A DNA stretch of 64,000 nt from Pirellula sp. SH-Sr6A (lineage in GTDB: Bacteria > Planctomycetota > Planctomycetia > Pirellulales > Pirellulaceae). Positions 47,502 through 54,492 of this stretch are shown here, in pieces. The notes under the pieces are model-generated. The model was given only the letters and a program-made list of their open reading frames with translations. It ran no database searches and was not told the origin of the DNA. Each line of letters starts with the position of its first letter. Position 1 is the stretch's first letter. A program made the translations under genes and the position numbers. The DNA lies in NCBI RefSeq assembly GCF_001610875.1, contig NZ_CP011272.1, positions 2,461,988 to 2,525,987 on the forward strand. The letters run 5' to 3'.

Positions 47502-47563
47502 TAGTCCATTATTCCCAGTCCACGGCTGATTCGAATCGACAATGGAGAGCAGCAACCAGCCTC

Positions 47564-47658
47564 GGGCCGCTGGAATGGCTACGGGCCGCTGGAATGGCTA
47601 CGGGCCGCTGGAATGGCTACGGGCCGCTGGAATGGCTACGGGCCGCTGGAATGGCTAC
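47564..47658. repeat. Five 19-bp tandem repeats at the end of the mutarotase gene
   Basis: GGGCCGCTGGAATGGCTAC is repeated exactly at 47564, 47583, 47602, 47621 and 47640, and a partial unit continues at 47659 inside the gene. The unit contains, on the minus strand, the gene's last codons and its TAG stop, so the array looks like serial duplication of the gene's 3' end. The period equals that of the array at 1903-2890, but the sequence is unrelated. Confidence 0.95.
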
Positions 47659-48527
47659 GGGCCGACGGAGTAGCGCACACCGATGATGTGTGTTTCGCTC
47701 GGCGCCAACGTCATGCGATGATCGCGAACCGAGGCCGTTTCGATGCAACACATGCGGTGGTATTCCTCGTCACCGAAGTCGGGCATGCGTTTCGACTTTT
47801 CTACCCACGGATTCCAGACGATGGTGGAGTTCGCGTTTGCTGAGTCGATCGAGATAGTGCGATTGCGCTCGGCATCTCGAAGCAGGATGCTTCCTACGGG
47901 GCCTTGATAGATTCGGTCTGTCTCCCTATCAAACCGAACCGGCTTGTGCTCAGCGGAGCAAACCTTTCGGCTGAGCTGATCGAAATAGGGAACCTTTTCC
48001 AAGCCTTCGACGGAGACCTTTTCGATAGCGGCAACGTCGAAATACGTATGCAATGCGACTTCACAATCGCGTGTCTGTGAAGATCGATTGGTCATTTTCA
48101 GTTCGAGCGCGAGCTCGGTGCCGAACTCCACTTTGCACCGAAGCAGGAACTCGTCTGCGATGCGTTCCATGACAACACGAACCGATTCGTTCTCGAACCG
48201 GCTTTCGACAAACTTCCATCGAGCTTGTCGAACCAATCCATGGGCCGGCTGCGAGGGATCTGTGGGATGGGCGGAGAACCACGGAAAGCAAAGGGGGATC
48301 CCTCCTCGGATTGGCTTCCCTTCTGCGAAACTGCTTTGCTCACTCATAAACAAAACGGGCCAAGCGGTATGGGAAGGATGCCAATGCGACACATGAGCAC
48401 CGTGCAGAAAGAATCGCCCCTCGCAAAACTTCGTCTGAACAACACCCTGCACCAAACCACTCGAATGGTTTTCAAAACAAAGAGCGGAATCGATACCAAA
48501 AGTCTGCTGTAACTGGTGTGCATCCAT
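47655..48527 (-). CDS. D-hexose-6-phosphate mutarotase (YeaD-like)
   Basis: 290 residues. IRGGIPLCFPWF, AHGLVRQARWKF, CEVALHTYFDVAAIEKVSVEGL and the late STIVWNPWVEKSKRMPDFGDEEYHRMCCIETA are hallmarks of the aldose-1-epimerase-like YeaD family, which interconverts glucose-6-phosphate anomers. The conserved His of HTYF and Glu of CIE match the catalytic positions. The stop codon is the first TAG of the 19-bp repeat array. Confidence 0.92.
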   Translation of the reverse strand: MDAHQLQQTFGIDSALCFENHSSGLVQGVVQTKFCEGRFFLHGAHVSHWHPSHTAWPVLFMSEQSSFAEGKPIRGGIPLCFPWFSAHPTDPSQPAHGLVRQARWKFVESRFENESVRVVMERIADEFLLRCKVEFGTELALELKMTNRSSQTRDCEVALHTYFDVAAIEKVSVEGLEKVPYFDQLSRKVCSAEHKPVRFDRETDRIYQGPVGSILLRDAERNRTISIDSANANSTIVWNPWVEKSKRMPDFGDEEYHRMCCIETASVRDHRMTLAPSETHIIGVRYSVGP

Positions 48528-50002: not shown

Positions 50003-50239
50003 AGTTGCCGTCTTTGATAGGGATCCAAAAGGAGTGGCGTTCGTCTGGGCGAGTCTACGTTCGGATGCGGCGCCTGCATTCGAATCGGGGGGAGGAAGAT
50101 GTGGGAACCGACAACCGGCTGGTTCGAATATCGCGATTGTGACGGTCGATTCGGTGGAAGGGGTGCGAACCTTTCCCCATCGAGGCCACTCATTTCTGTT
50201 CGAGCCTCTGATCCGAGCTCCCCCGTGGACGCTTCCCCG

Positions 50240-50268
50240 TTGACGCATTCCCGTGCCGGAGCTAGTCT
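50240..50268 (+). promoter_or_regulatory. Candidate promoter of the leuA leader
   Basis: TTGACG at 50240-50245 and TAGTCT at 50263-50268, with a 17-nt spacer. This places the transcript start near 50275, about 45 nt upstream of the leader peptide. Confidence 0.5.
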
Positions 50269-50319
50269 AAATGCTTCACGGGCGGAAGAATTGGACGCCT
50301 CGGCTACACCGACTGGAAC

Positions 50320-50376
50320 ATGATGAACCGACGACTGCCAACCTTGAAAAGCCTTGAGCTACTCCTCGCTCTCTAG
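50320..50376 (+). CDS. leuL: Leucine-rich leader peptide of leuA
   Basis: An 18-codon frame starting ATG ATG and ending TAG encodes MMNRRLPTLKSLELLLAL. Seven of 18 codons are Leu (CTG, TTG, CTT, CTA and three CTC), and five of the last seven residues are Leu. It lies 109 nt before the leuA ATG and is followed by an intrinsic terminator. This is the classic arrangement of amino-acid attenuators, in which ribosome stalling at Leu codons reports scarce charged tRNA-Leu. The symbol leuL is given by analogy with enteric leu leaders. The ribosome-binding site (TGGAA) is weak. Confidence 0.8.
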   Translation: MMNRRLPTLKSLELLLAL

Positions 50377-50461
50377 CGAGCGGAGGGGCTTGGTCGTTTG
50401 GATCCATACAACAAAAACCCAACCAACCCTGAGTTCGCATTGCGAATGTCAGGGTTTTTTT
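50349..50461 (+). promoter_or_regulatory. Transcription attenuator of leuA (pause hairpin, antiterminator, terminator)
   Basis: Three competing pairings are visible. 1:2 is a hairpin of CTCC+TCGCT (50362-50370) with AGCGA+GGAG (50375-50385), extendable by AAGCC (50349-50353) with GGCTT (50387-50391); its left arm is the Leu codon run. 2:3 pairs GGG-C-TTGGT (50386-50394) with ACCAACCC (50422-50429). 3:4 is the terminator, AACCCTGA (50425-50432) with TCAGGGTT (50449-50456). Segment 3 cannot pair with both 2 and 4. Stalling on Leu codons should free segment 2, form 2:3 and let RNA polymerase continue into leuA. Confidence 0.75.
50425..50461 (+). terminator. Intrinsic terminator inside the leuA leader
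   Basis: An 8-bp outer stem (AACCCTGA/TCAGGGTT) plus an inner TTCGC/GCGAA stem, followed directly by a U-run (50455-50461). It ends 23 nt before the leuA start codon and so lies in the untranslated leader. Confidence 0.9.
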
Positions 50462-50484
50462 ATAGCGATTATCGAGACACGAAG

Positions 50485-52140
50485 ATGGCAAAATACTCCC
50501 CATTCCCGCCGATTCAGCTCCCCGATCGGACCTGGCCAAATTGCACGATCACCCAAGCACCGATTTGGTGTTCGGTCGATTTACGGGACGGGAATCAAGC
50601 CCTCATCAACCCGATGGGTCCGGCGAAGAAGATGGAACTCTTCCGAACGCTCGTGAAAATCGGTTTCAAAGAAATTGAAGTCGGCTTCCCTGCCGCATCG
50701 GAGACCGATTTCGCTTTCGTGCGCGAATTGATTGAAAAGGATCTCATTCCTGCGGATGTAACCATTCAAGTCCTCGTGCAGTCGCGAAAGAATTTGATCG
50801 ATCGGACCTTCGAAGCGATTCGTGGGGCCAAGTCGGCCATCGTGCACTTGTACAACTCCACGTCCACTCTGCAGCGAAGGGTCGTCTTTCAAGCATCCAA
50901 GCAGGAGATCGTCCAACTCGCAATCGATGGCGCGACCCATATCCGAGATCTTGCGCGAGGTTCTGAAAACCCGGTTCGATTCCAATACTCCCCCGAAAGC
51001 TTTACCGGTACCGAGCTCGACTACGCCGTCGAGATTTGCGAAGCGGTTTGCGACGTTTGGCAGCCGACTCCGGAGAACAAGACCATCATCAATCTGCCAT
51101 CCACGGTCGAGTTGGCAACACCCAACGTCTACGCCGACCAAATCGAACTCTTCTGCAGACTCTTTCGGCCGCGTCAGAGCACTCTCATCTCGCTCCATAC
51201 TCACAACGATCGCGGGACCGGGATCGCCGCCTCCGAGTTAGGGCTCATGGCAGGGGCTGACCGCGTCGAGGGAACTCTGTTCGGAAATGGGGAGCGGACG
51301 GGCAATCTGGATATTGTCACCATGGCTCTCAATATGTTCACCCAAGGGGTTGATCCCAAACTGGACTTTTCCAACTTGAAAGAGATCCGCCGCATCGCGG
51401 AATTCTGCACGGAACTTAAGGTCCATGAGCGAATGCCCTACGCCGGCGACCTCGTCTTCACCGCGTTCTCCGGCTCCCATCAAGACGCGATTAAGAAGGG
51501 TTTCGCTGCGATGAAGGAAACCGGGCAAGATGCGTTCGAAGTTCCCTATCTCACCATTGATCCAGCCGACATTGGACGGCAGTACGACCCCGTGATCCGA
51601 GTGAACTCGCAATCGGGGAAAGGTGGTGTCGCGTTCTTGGTCGAAAGCGAACTCGGCTTCCAATTACCCCGCCGACTCCAAATTGCGTTTAGCCAAGTCA
51701 TCCAGAGAATCACCGATCAAACCGGCAAAGAGATGCCAGCGAGGGAGGTCGCCAGCAAGTTTGTCGAAACCTACATCCACCCTCCCGCGACGCTTCAGTA
51801 TCACTCTCACACCCCGATCGAATGCGATGCAGAGGACCAGGAACGTTATCGGTTCTCCGTGACCTACCAAGGAGAGAAATCGGAAGTGGAAGGGCAAGGT
51901 TCGGGCCCGATCGATGCCTTCGTACACGCGATTCGTGATCAGTACGGATTGGCTTGCGATATCCTCGATTACCACGAACACGCCATGGAAGCCGGAAGCG
52001 ACTCCACTGCTGCCGCCTACATCCTGGTCCGAACGCCCGACGGTCAAGAACTGTTCGGTGTCGGTCAGCATCGGTCCATCACCAAAGCCTCCCTCCTCGG
52101 GTTCATCGCAGCCGTCAACCGCAGCTTGCAGGCCCGATAA
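50485..52140 (+). CDS. leuA: 2-isopropylmalate synthase
   Basis: 551 residues from ATG 50485. A longer frame from 50398 would run through the terminator hairpin and is rejected. The enzyme condenses acetyl-CoA with 2-ketoisovalerate, the first committed step to leucine. The TIM barrel has CSVDLRDGNQALINPM (metal Asp, catalytic Arg) and ISLHTHNDRGTGIAASELG (metal His pair), with GTLFGNGERTGN between. The C-terminal allosteric domain includes EGQGSGPIDAFVHAI and GVGQHRSITKASLLGF. It is of the longer, LeuA2-like class. It is a single-gene unit with its own attenuator; leuB, leuC and leuD are not adjacent. Confidence 0.96.
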   Translation: MAKYSPFPPIQLPDRTWPNCTITQAPIWCSVDLRDGNQALINPMGPAKKMELFRTLVKIGFKEIEVGFPAASETDFAFVRELIEKDLIPADVTIQVLVQSRKNLIDRTFEAIRGAKSAIVHLYNSTSTLQRRVVFQASKQEIVQLAIDGATHIRDLARGSENPVRFQYSPESFTGTELDYAVEICEAVCDVWQPTPENKTIINLPSTVELATPNVYADQIELFCRLFRPRQSTLISLHTHNDRGTGIAASELGLMAGADRVEGTLFGNGERTGNLDIVTMALNMFTQGVDPKLDFSNLKEIRRIAEFCTELKVHERMPYAGDLVFTAFSGSHQDAIKKGFAAMKETGQDAFEVPYLTIDPADIGRQYDPVIRVNSQSGKGGVAFLVESELGFQLPRRLQIAFSQVIQRITDQTGKEMPAREVASKFVETYIHPPATLQYHSHTPIECDAEDQERYRFSVTYQGEKSEVEGQGSGPIDAFVHAIRDQYGLACDILDYHEHAMEAGSDSTAAAYILVRTPDGQELFGVGQHRSITKASLLGFIAAVNRSLQAR

Positions 52141-52592: not shown

Positions 52593-53153
52593 TTATTTCT
52601 CTGCGCTCCGCGGTGGCTTTGCTTCCTGGCCCAACCGTTGAAAGAGTTCTTGTAACAAACTCCGAGCAGCTTCGTAGGCGGCAGGGACTTTACTAGCTCG
52701 AGGCCCTGCCACGTTCAGTACGCGAATAGGGTAGTGCGACAACCATATTAGAATGGAGGGAAGCTCTCGGTTCCGGCTTAATGGCCGGTGGATCGTGCTG
52801 TCCCACACCACCCCGGAAGCCATTTCCGGCATTTTGATCGCGAGAAAGGGCTTCTGGAGTTCCCGTGCCATCCGGAGCGTCAGCAAGGAACCCCCGGAGA
52901 GCCGTGGCGGTCCCAAGATCAACGTTCCGTCGGCGGCGATCACATTCTGCCGCGTCCTCTCGGTGTAATCCATCGACGGGAGCTCCTCGAGGCGATAACG
53001 GTCAGGTATCGGCCCCTCTTCCGACATCCTCCCCTTCGGACATCACCCCCCGTGGTCGATTCCTGCTGCCATCGCCGCATCGAGCGCCGCCCGGTCCACG
53101 CCCGTTTGACCGCCGGAGATCACGCATTGGAGCGGGACGGCGGGGTAGATCAT
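52593..53153 (-). pseudogene. Molybdenum-carrier-like (circularly permuted YpsA) gene broken by one TGA
   Basis: Reading from ATG 53153 gives 36 residues containing VISGGQTGVDRAALDAAMAAGIDHGG. Then comes TGA (53045-53043), after which the same frame continues CPKGRMSEEGPIPDRYRLEELPSMDYTERTRQNV, DGTLILGPPRLSGGSLLTLRMAREL and LNVAGPRASKVPAAYEAARSLLQELF. In this family the motif reads GGWCPKGR, so TGA replaces the conserved Trp codon TGG. Without the stop the protein would have 186 residues. No frameshift or other stop is present. Re-initiation at ATG 53027 would give 144 residues lacking the nucleotide-binding GGQTGVDR motif. Options are a recent pseudogene, sequencing error or recoding. Confidence 0.85.
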
Positions 53154-53334: not shown

Positions 53335-54492
53335 ATGAATCGACAAATTCTCTTGGTCTCATTGTTCGTTTGCCCCACCGCATCGATCGTGATCGGCATG
53401 GGTCACCCCATCACCAAGATGGACCCTCGCGATGCGAAATGGCAGGTCGCCATCGATCCCCACAAGGTCGTCGGCGTGGCAAGTTGCGAGAAATGCCACG
53501 CACCGGAAGTACAGACATGGAAGCGAACGCCCCATAGCGAGACTTTCGTGACCTTGCACCGCAAGCCCGAGGCCCAGCAAATCGCCAGCAAGCTTGGTAT
53601 TACCAACTTCAAAAGCGACTCGAACTGCATCCAGTGCCATTACACGATGGATTCCACAGCGGATTCCACTGCGGGGTCCACTGCGGGGTCCACTGCGGGG
53701 TCCACTGCGGGGTCCACTGCGGGGTCCACTGCGGGGTCCATAGCGGGGTCCATAGCGGGGTCCATAGCGGGGTCCATAGCGGGGGCCGCAAAATTGGAAG
53801 CGATCGCAGGAGTCTCCTGCGAATCGTGTCACGGAGCCGCTGCAGATTGGATCTCCGTCCACAACGATTACGGCGGTCCCAATATGACCAAGCTGCAGGA
53901 ATCGCCGCAGCACCGAGTCGAGCGATTCTCCCGGAGTATCGAGTTGGGGATGCGGAATCCCGTCAACGTCTACTTGCTCGCTCAAAGCTGCTACCGATGC
54001 CATACGGTTCCTGACGAAAAGCTAGTGAACGTCGGTGGGCATCATGCCGGTAGTCTCGATTTTGAGCTCGTCAGTTGGTCGCAAGGGACTGTTCGGCACA
54101 ACTTTGTACGCACCGATGGGAAATCGAATGCCGAAGAAACCGCGGGACGGCTGCGGCAGCTCTTTGTGGCCGGTCTGATCGCAGACATCGAGTTCAGCAT
54201 GAAGGCGACGGCGATGGCGACGGAGAAGGCAACGTTTGGCATCACTTCGGCGCAGCGAACCGCTCGAGCGATCGAACGACTGAAGTCCGCGCAGACCAAG
54301 GTGCAAGCACCCATCCTAGATGAGGTCCTCGCGGTCGCGACATCGGTGTCCCTCAAACTGAACAACCGTCAGCCCCTCGAAGAGGCCGCCGAGAAGATTC
54401 ACGACTTGGGTGTTCGATTTGCATCCACCGTCCGAGGGGACGACTTGAGTGCCATCGATTCCTTCATCCCTCCTAAAGACAAATGGAAATAA
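53335..54492 (+). CDS. Tetraheme cytochrome c (c554-like) with a low-complexity insert
   Basis: 385 residues from ATG 53335, where a signal peptide starts (MNRQILLVSLFVCPTASIVIG). Four CxxCH heme sites are present: CEKCH, CIQCH, CESCH and CYRCH, as in cytochrome c554-type multiheme proteins that pass electrons in the periplasm. Between hemes 2 and 3 there is an array of DSTA/GSTA/GSIA units encoded by an exact 12-bp repeat (53650-53781). Spare His residues (RTPHSET, GGHHAGS) could be distal ligands. The C-terminal 130 residues are helical. Its stop overlaps the ATG of the next frame. The electron partner is unknown. Confidence 0.88.
   Translation: MNRQILLVSLFVCPTASIVIGMGHPITKMDPRDAKWQVAIDPHKVVGVASCEKCHAPEVQTWKRTPHSETFVTLHRKPEAQQIASKLGITNFKSDSNCIQCHYTMDSTADSTAGSTAGSTAGSTAGSTAGSTAGSIAGSIAGSIAGSIAGAAKLEAIAGVSCESCHGAAADWISVHNDYGGPNMTKLQESPQHRVERFSRSIELGMRNPVNVYLLAQSCYRCHTVPDEKLVNVGGHHAGSLDFELVSWSQGTVRHNFVRTDGKSNAEETAGRLRQLFVAGLIADIEFSMKATAMATEKATFGITSAQRTARAIERLKSAQTKVQAPILDEVLAVATSVSLKLNNRQPLEEAAEKIHDLGVRFASTVRGDDLSAIDSFIPPKDKWK
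53650..53781 (+). repeat. In-frame 12-bp tandem repeat, 11 units
   Basis: Units of GGGTCCACTGCG (first two begin GAT; the last four carry ATA in place of ACT) encode DSTA x2, GSTA x5, GSIA x4. The reading frame is kept because the unit is four codons. Variants are clustered by position, as expected for expansion by slippage or unequal exchange. Confidence 0.95.

Follow-up and report, generated by a model that had tools for sequence, protein, structure and literature searches.

A predicted leucine-leader attenuator precedes leuA in Pirellula sp. SH-Sr6A and recurs across its planctomycete class

The leuA gene of Pirellula sp. SH-Sr6A (Pirellulaceae) is preceded by an element that is very probably a ribosome-mediated, peptide-leader transcription attenuator. 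The parts of this element, their conservation, its specificity for leucine, the match between the two arms of the antiterminator, the placement of the first of these arms at the leader stop codon, and an upstream promoter are all seen directly in the sequences compared here. From the same comparisons, the element appears widespread in the class to which the organism belongs, and within the Pirellulaceae it seems to have been kept while the enzyme encoded behind it was exchanged. The window, the whole stretch of DNA that we analyzed, comprises 64,000 nt (NZ_CP011272.1, positions 2,461,988 to 2,525,987, forward strand), and positions are given in its own numbering. The features of the leuA locus are as follows.

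50240-50245 and 50263-50268, + strand: −35 box and −10-like box of the promoter-like TTGACG-N17-TAGTCT, from the sequence
50320-50376, + strand: reading frame of the leader peptide MMNRRLPTLKSLELLLAL, with its TAG stop codon at 50374-50376, from translation
50351-50370, + strand: arm 1, which overlaps the Leu codons and pairs with arm 2, from the fold
50375-50394, + strand: arm 2, the left arm of the antiterminator (GCGAGC...GGGG.TTGGT), which overlaps the leader stop codon, from duplex energy and conserved columns
50422-50438, + strand: arm 3, the right arm of the antiterminator (ACCAACCCT..GTTCGC) and also the left arm of the terminator, from duplex energy
50425-50456, + strand: intrinsic terminator hairpin (3:4), with a U7 run at 50455-50461, from the fold and covariation
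50485-52140, + strand: leuA, encoding a long-type 2-isopropylmalate synthase, from NF002991 and TIGR00970

A first-pass annotation, made from the sequence alone, had read this region as a leucine attenuator. Translation of 50320-50376 bears out the 18-codon frame that it described, with Leu at seven codons, five of these among the last seven; the ribosome-binding site ahead of the frame (GGAA, 50315-50318) looks weak. The promoter-like sequence is where it had been placed, at 50240 and 50263 with a spacer of 17. The predicted terminator (50425-50461), which shares segment 3 with the alternative pairing as proposed, folds at −18.3 kcal/mol (z −5.8), an energy equalled by none of 200 shuffles. 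Simple promoter and terminator scans list neither of these two features, the promoter because only three of six positions match in its −10 box and the terminator because its stem is bulged. The alternative pairing, given as 50386-50394 with 50422-50429, is present, but arm 2 had been drawn too narrowly: its essential part starts at the leader stop codon and takes in GCGAG. In the window, the 2:3 duplex has an energy of −23.5 kcal/mol (shuffle p 0.00, 100 shuffles) and joins GCGAGC (50376-50381) to GTTCGC (50433-50438), GGGG (50385-50388) to CCCT (50427-50430), and TTGGT (50390-50394) to ACCAA (50422-50426). The 56-nt stretch 50380-50435 folded by itself has no unusual energy (z 0.3). The hairpin formed by the Leu run, 1:2 (50351-50394), does fold, at −19.2 kcal/mol, but its energy is ordinary against shuffles (z −1.1). 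The fold of the whole 201-nt region is likewise unremarkable (z −0.9), so that energy by itself would have missed the element. A degenerate 14-bp repeat, GCTTCCCCGTGGAC, present in 2.8 copies at 50217-50255, overlaps the −35 box.

Across both strands of the 64-kb window, four short reading frames carry at least five Leu in eight codons, and the leuA leader is the only one of these with a U-run terminator within 130 nt. With a laxer cut (four Leu in eight codons), the window yields five other frame-terminator pairs, all of them on the + strand. We consider the comparative evidence to be the decisive argument against chance.

That evidence comes from up to 700 nt upstream of planctomycete leuA genes (less at contig ends, for example 236 nt at L005), scanned for a frame of 8 to 50 codons with at least four Leu in eight codons and a stop no more than 130 nt before a U-run hairpin of −12 kcal/mol or lower. 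This combination is present in 129 of 260 regions, a count that includes one match judged false by eye (L252), misses elements accepted by eye (L013 and L029), and excludes L133 as a duplicate of the L008 locus. The same scan of the reverse strand found it in one region, and the same criterion applied to other amino acids found at most 12 of 260 (Arg). The upstream set was drawn from among the matches listed, with 20 of these left out, and the 80 regions of the class sample were a non-random choice, made by hand according to family and rank. Among long-type leuA genes of the Pirellulaceae, the clade of the window's gene, 12 of 13 have the element; the sole exception has just 106 nt of upstream sequence, with a terminator at its edge. 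The first-pass annotation had made lack of conservation of the Leu-rich frame, or of compensatory base changes, a ground on which to abandon its reading, and the recurrence of frame and terminator in these close homologs, as in the wider set, supports it instead.

The distribution within planctomycetes is uneven. In the window's genus (g1), all five long-type loci (L001-L004 and L031) and none of the 14 short-type loci have the element. It precedes short-type leuA in 25 of 28 Pirellulaceae regions outside that genus and in 28 of 33 regions from other Pirellulales (together 53/61). Counts by family are 31/32 in f21, 11/15 in f118 (which we take to be Gemmataceae), 4/6 in f119-f121, and 3/15 in f22 (presumably Isosphaeraceae). 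Other classes contribute 10 of 91 short-type regions, L252 being one of these ten, and five of eight long-type regions; long-type leuA genes at 54-56% identity have it in none of five. The leuA of strain K23_9 (L058, record CP036526) has the element. The 131 regions with no such combination include 12 of the 15 in f22 and 81 of the 91 short-type regions from other classes. A Leu-rich frame is nevertheless found in 11 of the 15 f22 regions, mostly with no U-run terminator, and these leaders perhaps use another way of terminating.

Several variants came to light in these regions. Several f22 leader frames (within L353-L366) share the type LRL..ILGLTGRV before a short-type leuA. Four long-type loci of other classes (L044, L045, L047, and L048), whose LeuA lies on a different branch, have Leu leaders that make up a set of their own, sharing an LRLT core ahead of a U-run terminator. 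Many f21 genomes encode two short-type LeuA-like proteins at E ≤ 1e-90, and upstream regions were viewed for the better matches listed.

Among 24 relatives, mostly genus-mates whose leuA is without the element, leuC has no Leu leader (0/20 regions), ilvB no Ile, Leu, or Val leader (0/20), and trpE no Trp leader (0/21). This control is small in that only six, six, and seven of these regions, respectively, belong to genomes with the element before leuA (G000, G025, G027, G029, G030, and G032, with G011 for trpE). The loci used were 20 of 23 for leuC (L273, L275, and L276 being left out), 20 of 20 for ilvB, and 21 of 28 for the trpE family. Scattered frame-terminator pairs for residues outside the pathways (among them Ser, Ala, Met, and His, and one Trp before ilvB) occur in the same regions.

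The competing pairing was examined in 71 elements, namely 73 candidates minus L133 as a duplicate and L252 as false by eye; this set keeps the doubtful L259, which the 129 criterion matches lack while including L252. Three others on the by-eye rejection list (L195, L199, and L232) had already been removed by the −12 kcal/mol cut. Because several families were misplaced in a MAFFT alignment of 26 diverse elements (A2), which we kept out of the pair counts, we used permutation across species, in which each arm 2 is paired with its own arm 3 or with that of another species. In the 71 elements, own duplexes average −19.2 kcal/mol versus −14.9 kcal/mol with the arms of other species, and 37 of the 71 pair better than shuffles at p < 0.05; the median gap between leader stop and terminator is 33 nt. 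For 36 representatives, the values are −20.0 and −15.4 kcal/mol (z −8.6), and none of 20,000 permutations reached the mean of the own duplexes. Restricted to the window's clade, the permutation gives p 0.02-0.04, and for the five long-type elements of other classes it gives p 0.25. Pairing is poor in L046-L048, L142, L157, and L259. The letters of the two arms differ by family yet still match: GGTCTTAGG with CCTGAGACC in f21, GCGGATAGG with CCTGTCTGC in f77/f84, AAGCGT with ACGCTT in L040, and GCGAG..GGGG with CCCT..CTCGC in the window's clade, where the GCGAG and GGGG columns of arm 2 are conserved (alignment A1).

Arm 2 is also set on the leader stop codon. A narrow search, from −18 to +28 nt around the stop, finds the best arm 2 touching the stop in 65 of 71 elements, with 72% in shuffled sequences; because this placement is partly built into the search, a wide search from 80 nt before the stop to the terminator is the fair test. 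There, 62 of 71 elements have their best arm 2 in contact with the stop codon, compared with 30% of shuffled sequences, and the center of the arm lies at the stop (median +0.2 nt).

The annotation had also suggested a test of covariation in the three pairings. In 12 sequences, the terminator covaries, with 92.3% of its cells paired and a covariation score of 0.272 versus 0.186 for shuffles, none of 500 of which reached it. The antiterminator has 84% of cells paired in the 12-sequence alignment versus at most 56% when slid, but its columns show no significant excess of covariation within this 12-member clade. For the 1:2 hairpin, comparative support appears weak (permutation p 0.04 for all representatives, 0.01 for short-type elements, and 0.91 in the window's clade).

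Three other explanations can be weighed against this one. The element could be an ordinary upstream reading frame with a terminator, which would act as a fixed brake or through Rho or translation coupling and would sense no leucine. Leu-rich short frames are indeed frequent, occurring in 49 of the 91 short-type regions from other classes, 10 of these with a terminator, yet requiring a terminator brings out a specificity for one amino acid (129 regions for Leu against 12 for Arg), and a fixed brake has no need of an arm 2 that is matched to arm 3 and set on the stop codon. We regard this explanation as improbable. Still less probable is that a hydrophobic micropeptide, a small membrane protein, is the conserved product and the terminator incidental. 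Runs of Leu are hydrophobic, and the position of the frame is conserved; against this, the frame is tied to the terminator, residues other than Leu vary even among neighbors (MSNTYTSLPAVILLSDLLLLPLALGER in G173, read from an internal ATG, and VNFTSSNLLLSGLALLALADCER in G356), and the final residues track the RNA arm (GCGAG, GGTCTTAG). Although some upstream-frame elements were at first mistaken for riboswitches, according to passages of PMC11109978, a T-box or other tRNA- or ligand-binding leader RNA with a chance reading frame is scarcely credible here, given that neither the window nor any of eight related loci has an Rfam match at gathering score, tRNAs excepted, that the whole library, searched at this threshold and also with E values of up to 10, yields nothing relevant and no T-box or riboswitch model match, that the two sub-threshold matches in 50200-50500 score 13.9 bits (cut-off 45) and 11.6 bits (cut-off 50), and that the alignments show no evident conserved domain beyond the competing hairpins.

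A promoter of fixed form accompanies the element. The pattern TTGACN-N17-TANNNT, which was framed after several of the sequences had been inspected, was sought in a 160-nt stretch whose end lies 30 nt upstream of the leader stop. It occurs there in 74 of 128 elements; mononucleotide shuffles predict 0.16, and the reverse strand has none. The set behind this count (129 elements, 128 of them tested) is not quite identical to the 129 criterion matches. Among the 12 long-type elements of the Pirellulaceae, nine have the promoter at exact spacing. In the last 400 nt before short-type leuA genes that have no element, the pattern occurs in three of 80 regions, and in the corresponding stretch of the short-type regions of genus g1 it occurs in none of 14. 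Because the promoter often accompanies the element and is scarce without it, the conserved unit comprises promoter, leader, attenuator, and leuA.

We infer from this arrangement how the attenuator would work. Transcription would start immediately downstream of 50268, followed by translation of the 18-codon leader. With ample Leu-tRNA, the ribosome would reach the stop codon at 50374 and its footprint would lie over arm 2 (50375-50394); with arm 2 covered, the 2:3 antiterminator could not form, the 3:4 terminator would form instead, and transcription would end near 50461. With Leu-tRNA scarce, the ribosome would stall on the Leu codons, masking arm 1 and leaving arm 2 free, so that 2:3 would form and RNA polymerase would read into leuA. 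Were the leader not translated, 1:2 might form and the terminator would stay on. The location of arm 2 on or next to the stop codon is what would let a finishing ribosome cover it and one stalled at the Leu codons leave it free. Stalling, footprint geometry, termination, and the response to leucine are thus predictions from the order and pairing of the parts.

The enzyme behind the attenuator is unusual for planctomycetes. The LeuA of the window scores 836 bits with NF002991 (cut-off 455) and 759.7 with TIGR00970 (cut-off 697.4). Long-type LeuA proteins (E ≤ 1e-100) are encoded, with the window's genome included in each count, by 5 of the 27 genomes in the genus, 14 of 241 in the family, 8 of 396 in the order sample, and 11 of 392 in the phylum sample. 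A short-type LeuA, ≈30% identical to the long type, is present in 286 of the 297 genomes of the class sample, and we therefore take it as the ancestral planctomycete enzyme. In a tree of 44 sequences, which has long branches between groups, several of these open or flagged, the 13 long-type proteins of the Pirellulaceae come together in a single group with full support, amid homologs from Proteobacteria and elsewhere. The five long-type proteins of other classes that have a Leu leader lie across a fully supported branch, beside three that have none. The leader label requires two changes on this tree, which would mean either two gains or one gain and one loss.

A profile HMM built from the 12 long-type attenuators and run against 231 short-type upstream regions ranks two short-type genomes of genus g26 at the top (G173 at 5.5e-13 and G165 at 9.8e-9), both matched over nearly the full length; matches weaker than ≈1e-4 may reflect only the palindrome of the terminator, the best reverse-strand match being 1.9e-4. 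Besides these two, genus g26 holds seven long-type genomes. In short-type G173 and long-type G356, both flanks of leuA are colinear and encode proteins that are 49-86% identical; the two LeuA proteins are 28% identical. At the nucleotide level, the two genomes share a 106-nt match at the attenuator (72.6%, E 1.7e-8) and no match within leuA. Two further long-type members of the genus, G418 and G268, have 8 to 11 reading frames in common with G173; in nucleotide comparison, their flanking genes match those of G173, but the attenuator does not. The window's own locus is colinear with none of the short-type loci compared.

The simplest reading of the g26 locus is that one leuA coding sequence replaced the other at the same position and the switch was retained, with an exchange in the opposite direction being possible. 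Because the enzyme differs between two species at a g26 locus whose flanks and attenuator are homologous, switch and enzyme are separable. A joint origin of leuA and attenuator from Proteobacteria is unsupported: the five nearest gammaproteobacterial homologs (L059-L063, 56-58% identical) have no such leader in 450 nt, and the nearest relatives of the attenuator are short-type Pirellulaceae elements, which further disfavors it.

We think it likely that attenuator and promoter form a separable module found across much of the class (Pirellulales, f21, and f118) and kept through the exchange of the enzyme, and that planctomycetes, among them the group in which the two processes are proposed to be spatially segregated, couple transcription with translation. 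Coupling is implied because such an attenuator would work only with a ribosome close behind RNA polymerase. Such segregation has been proposed for Gemmata, and the nature of planctomycete compartments is debated, according to PMC5394234 and PMC6212462, which cite Gottshall 2014. If the assignment is right, a leucine switch over much of a class would be a defined case of amino-acid control in planctomycetes; a working attenuator would be a natural reporter for the debated question of coupling, and the exchange of an enzyme under a retained switch would clearly exemplify regulation that outlives the gene under its control.

The logic of peptide-leader attenuation is that of the enteric leu, ilv, and trp operons. 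Like the enteric leu attenuator (Rfam Leu_leader), the planctomycete element has a Leu-rich leader peptide, competing antiterminator and terminator, and leuA under its presumed control, the mechanism being assigned by analogy. Unlike the enteric system, it occurs in a different phylum, precedes a long-type leuA in the window, and has no leuBCD directly behind (the next long frame after leuA, 52593-53027, is on the opposite strand). The Leu_leader covariance model gave no match in the whole-library search. Rhizobium leuA leaders are similar in that a Leu-rich frame (...TSLLLLGLTRGCRVL and stop) precedes a long-type leuA; they differ in having no terminator by the U-run criterion, and the Rhizobium LeuA falls on a separate branch with full support. 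In Rhizobium and its kin (L064-L131), the leader is mostly near-invariant, ends in TSLLLLGLTRGCRV(L/R), and lies ≈210-265 nt upstream of the long-type leuA.

Amino-acid leaders outside Proteobacteria include the actinobacterial LEU element, which precedes leuA, and the ilvB and trp attenuators, as covered in part of PMC1262725. That paper describes LEU elements as forming a conserved pseudoknot and gives the mutation data on leuA of Streptomyces as inconsistent with classical attenuation; unlike the LEU element so described, the window has the parts of a classical attenuator. By their descriptions in sections of PMC2965389 and PMC5794164, respectively, the Firmicute hisS leader peptide is a case of attenuation outside Proteobacteria and Actinobacteria, in another phylum and for another gene, and the leucine-rich ilv attenuator of Staphylococcus aureus is a similar element in another phylum and before other genes. 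The 2010 survey, in those sections (PMC2965389), states that such systems had previously been shown in Proteobacteria and Actinobacteria only and added Firmicutes. The portions of PMC4833913 that count leader frames near Planctomycetes genes name no leucine attenuator. The mechanistic class is an old one, with further background in parts of PMC8632094 and PMC10117765. The first-pass annotation knew of no peptide-leader attenuator described in Planctomycetes, and our search of the open-access literature, a scope that leaves most subscription journals outside, likewise found no report of one in Planctomycetota. The mechanism is classical; the phylum and the breadth are new to us.

The window holds several other repeats. 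A 19-bp unit, GGGGACACTCACGAGGACG, is present in 52 tandem copies (97% match) at 1902-2893, and a related shorter array with GGGGACACTCACC lies near 325-412. A perfect 19-bp tandem repeat, CGGGCCGCTGGAATGGCTA, occurs in 5.4 copies at 47563-47664, just past a long frame resembling a sigma-54-type regulator. Finally, 11 copies of a 12-bp repeat at 53653-53784 lie inside a frame with multiple CxxCH motifs (cytochrome c-like), where they give a GSTA/GSIA run.
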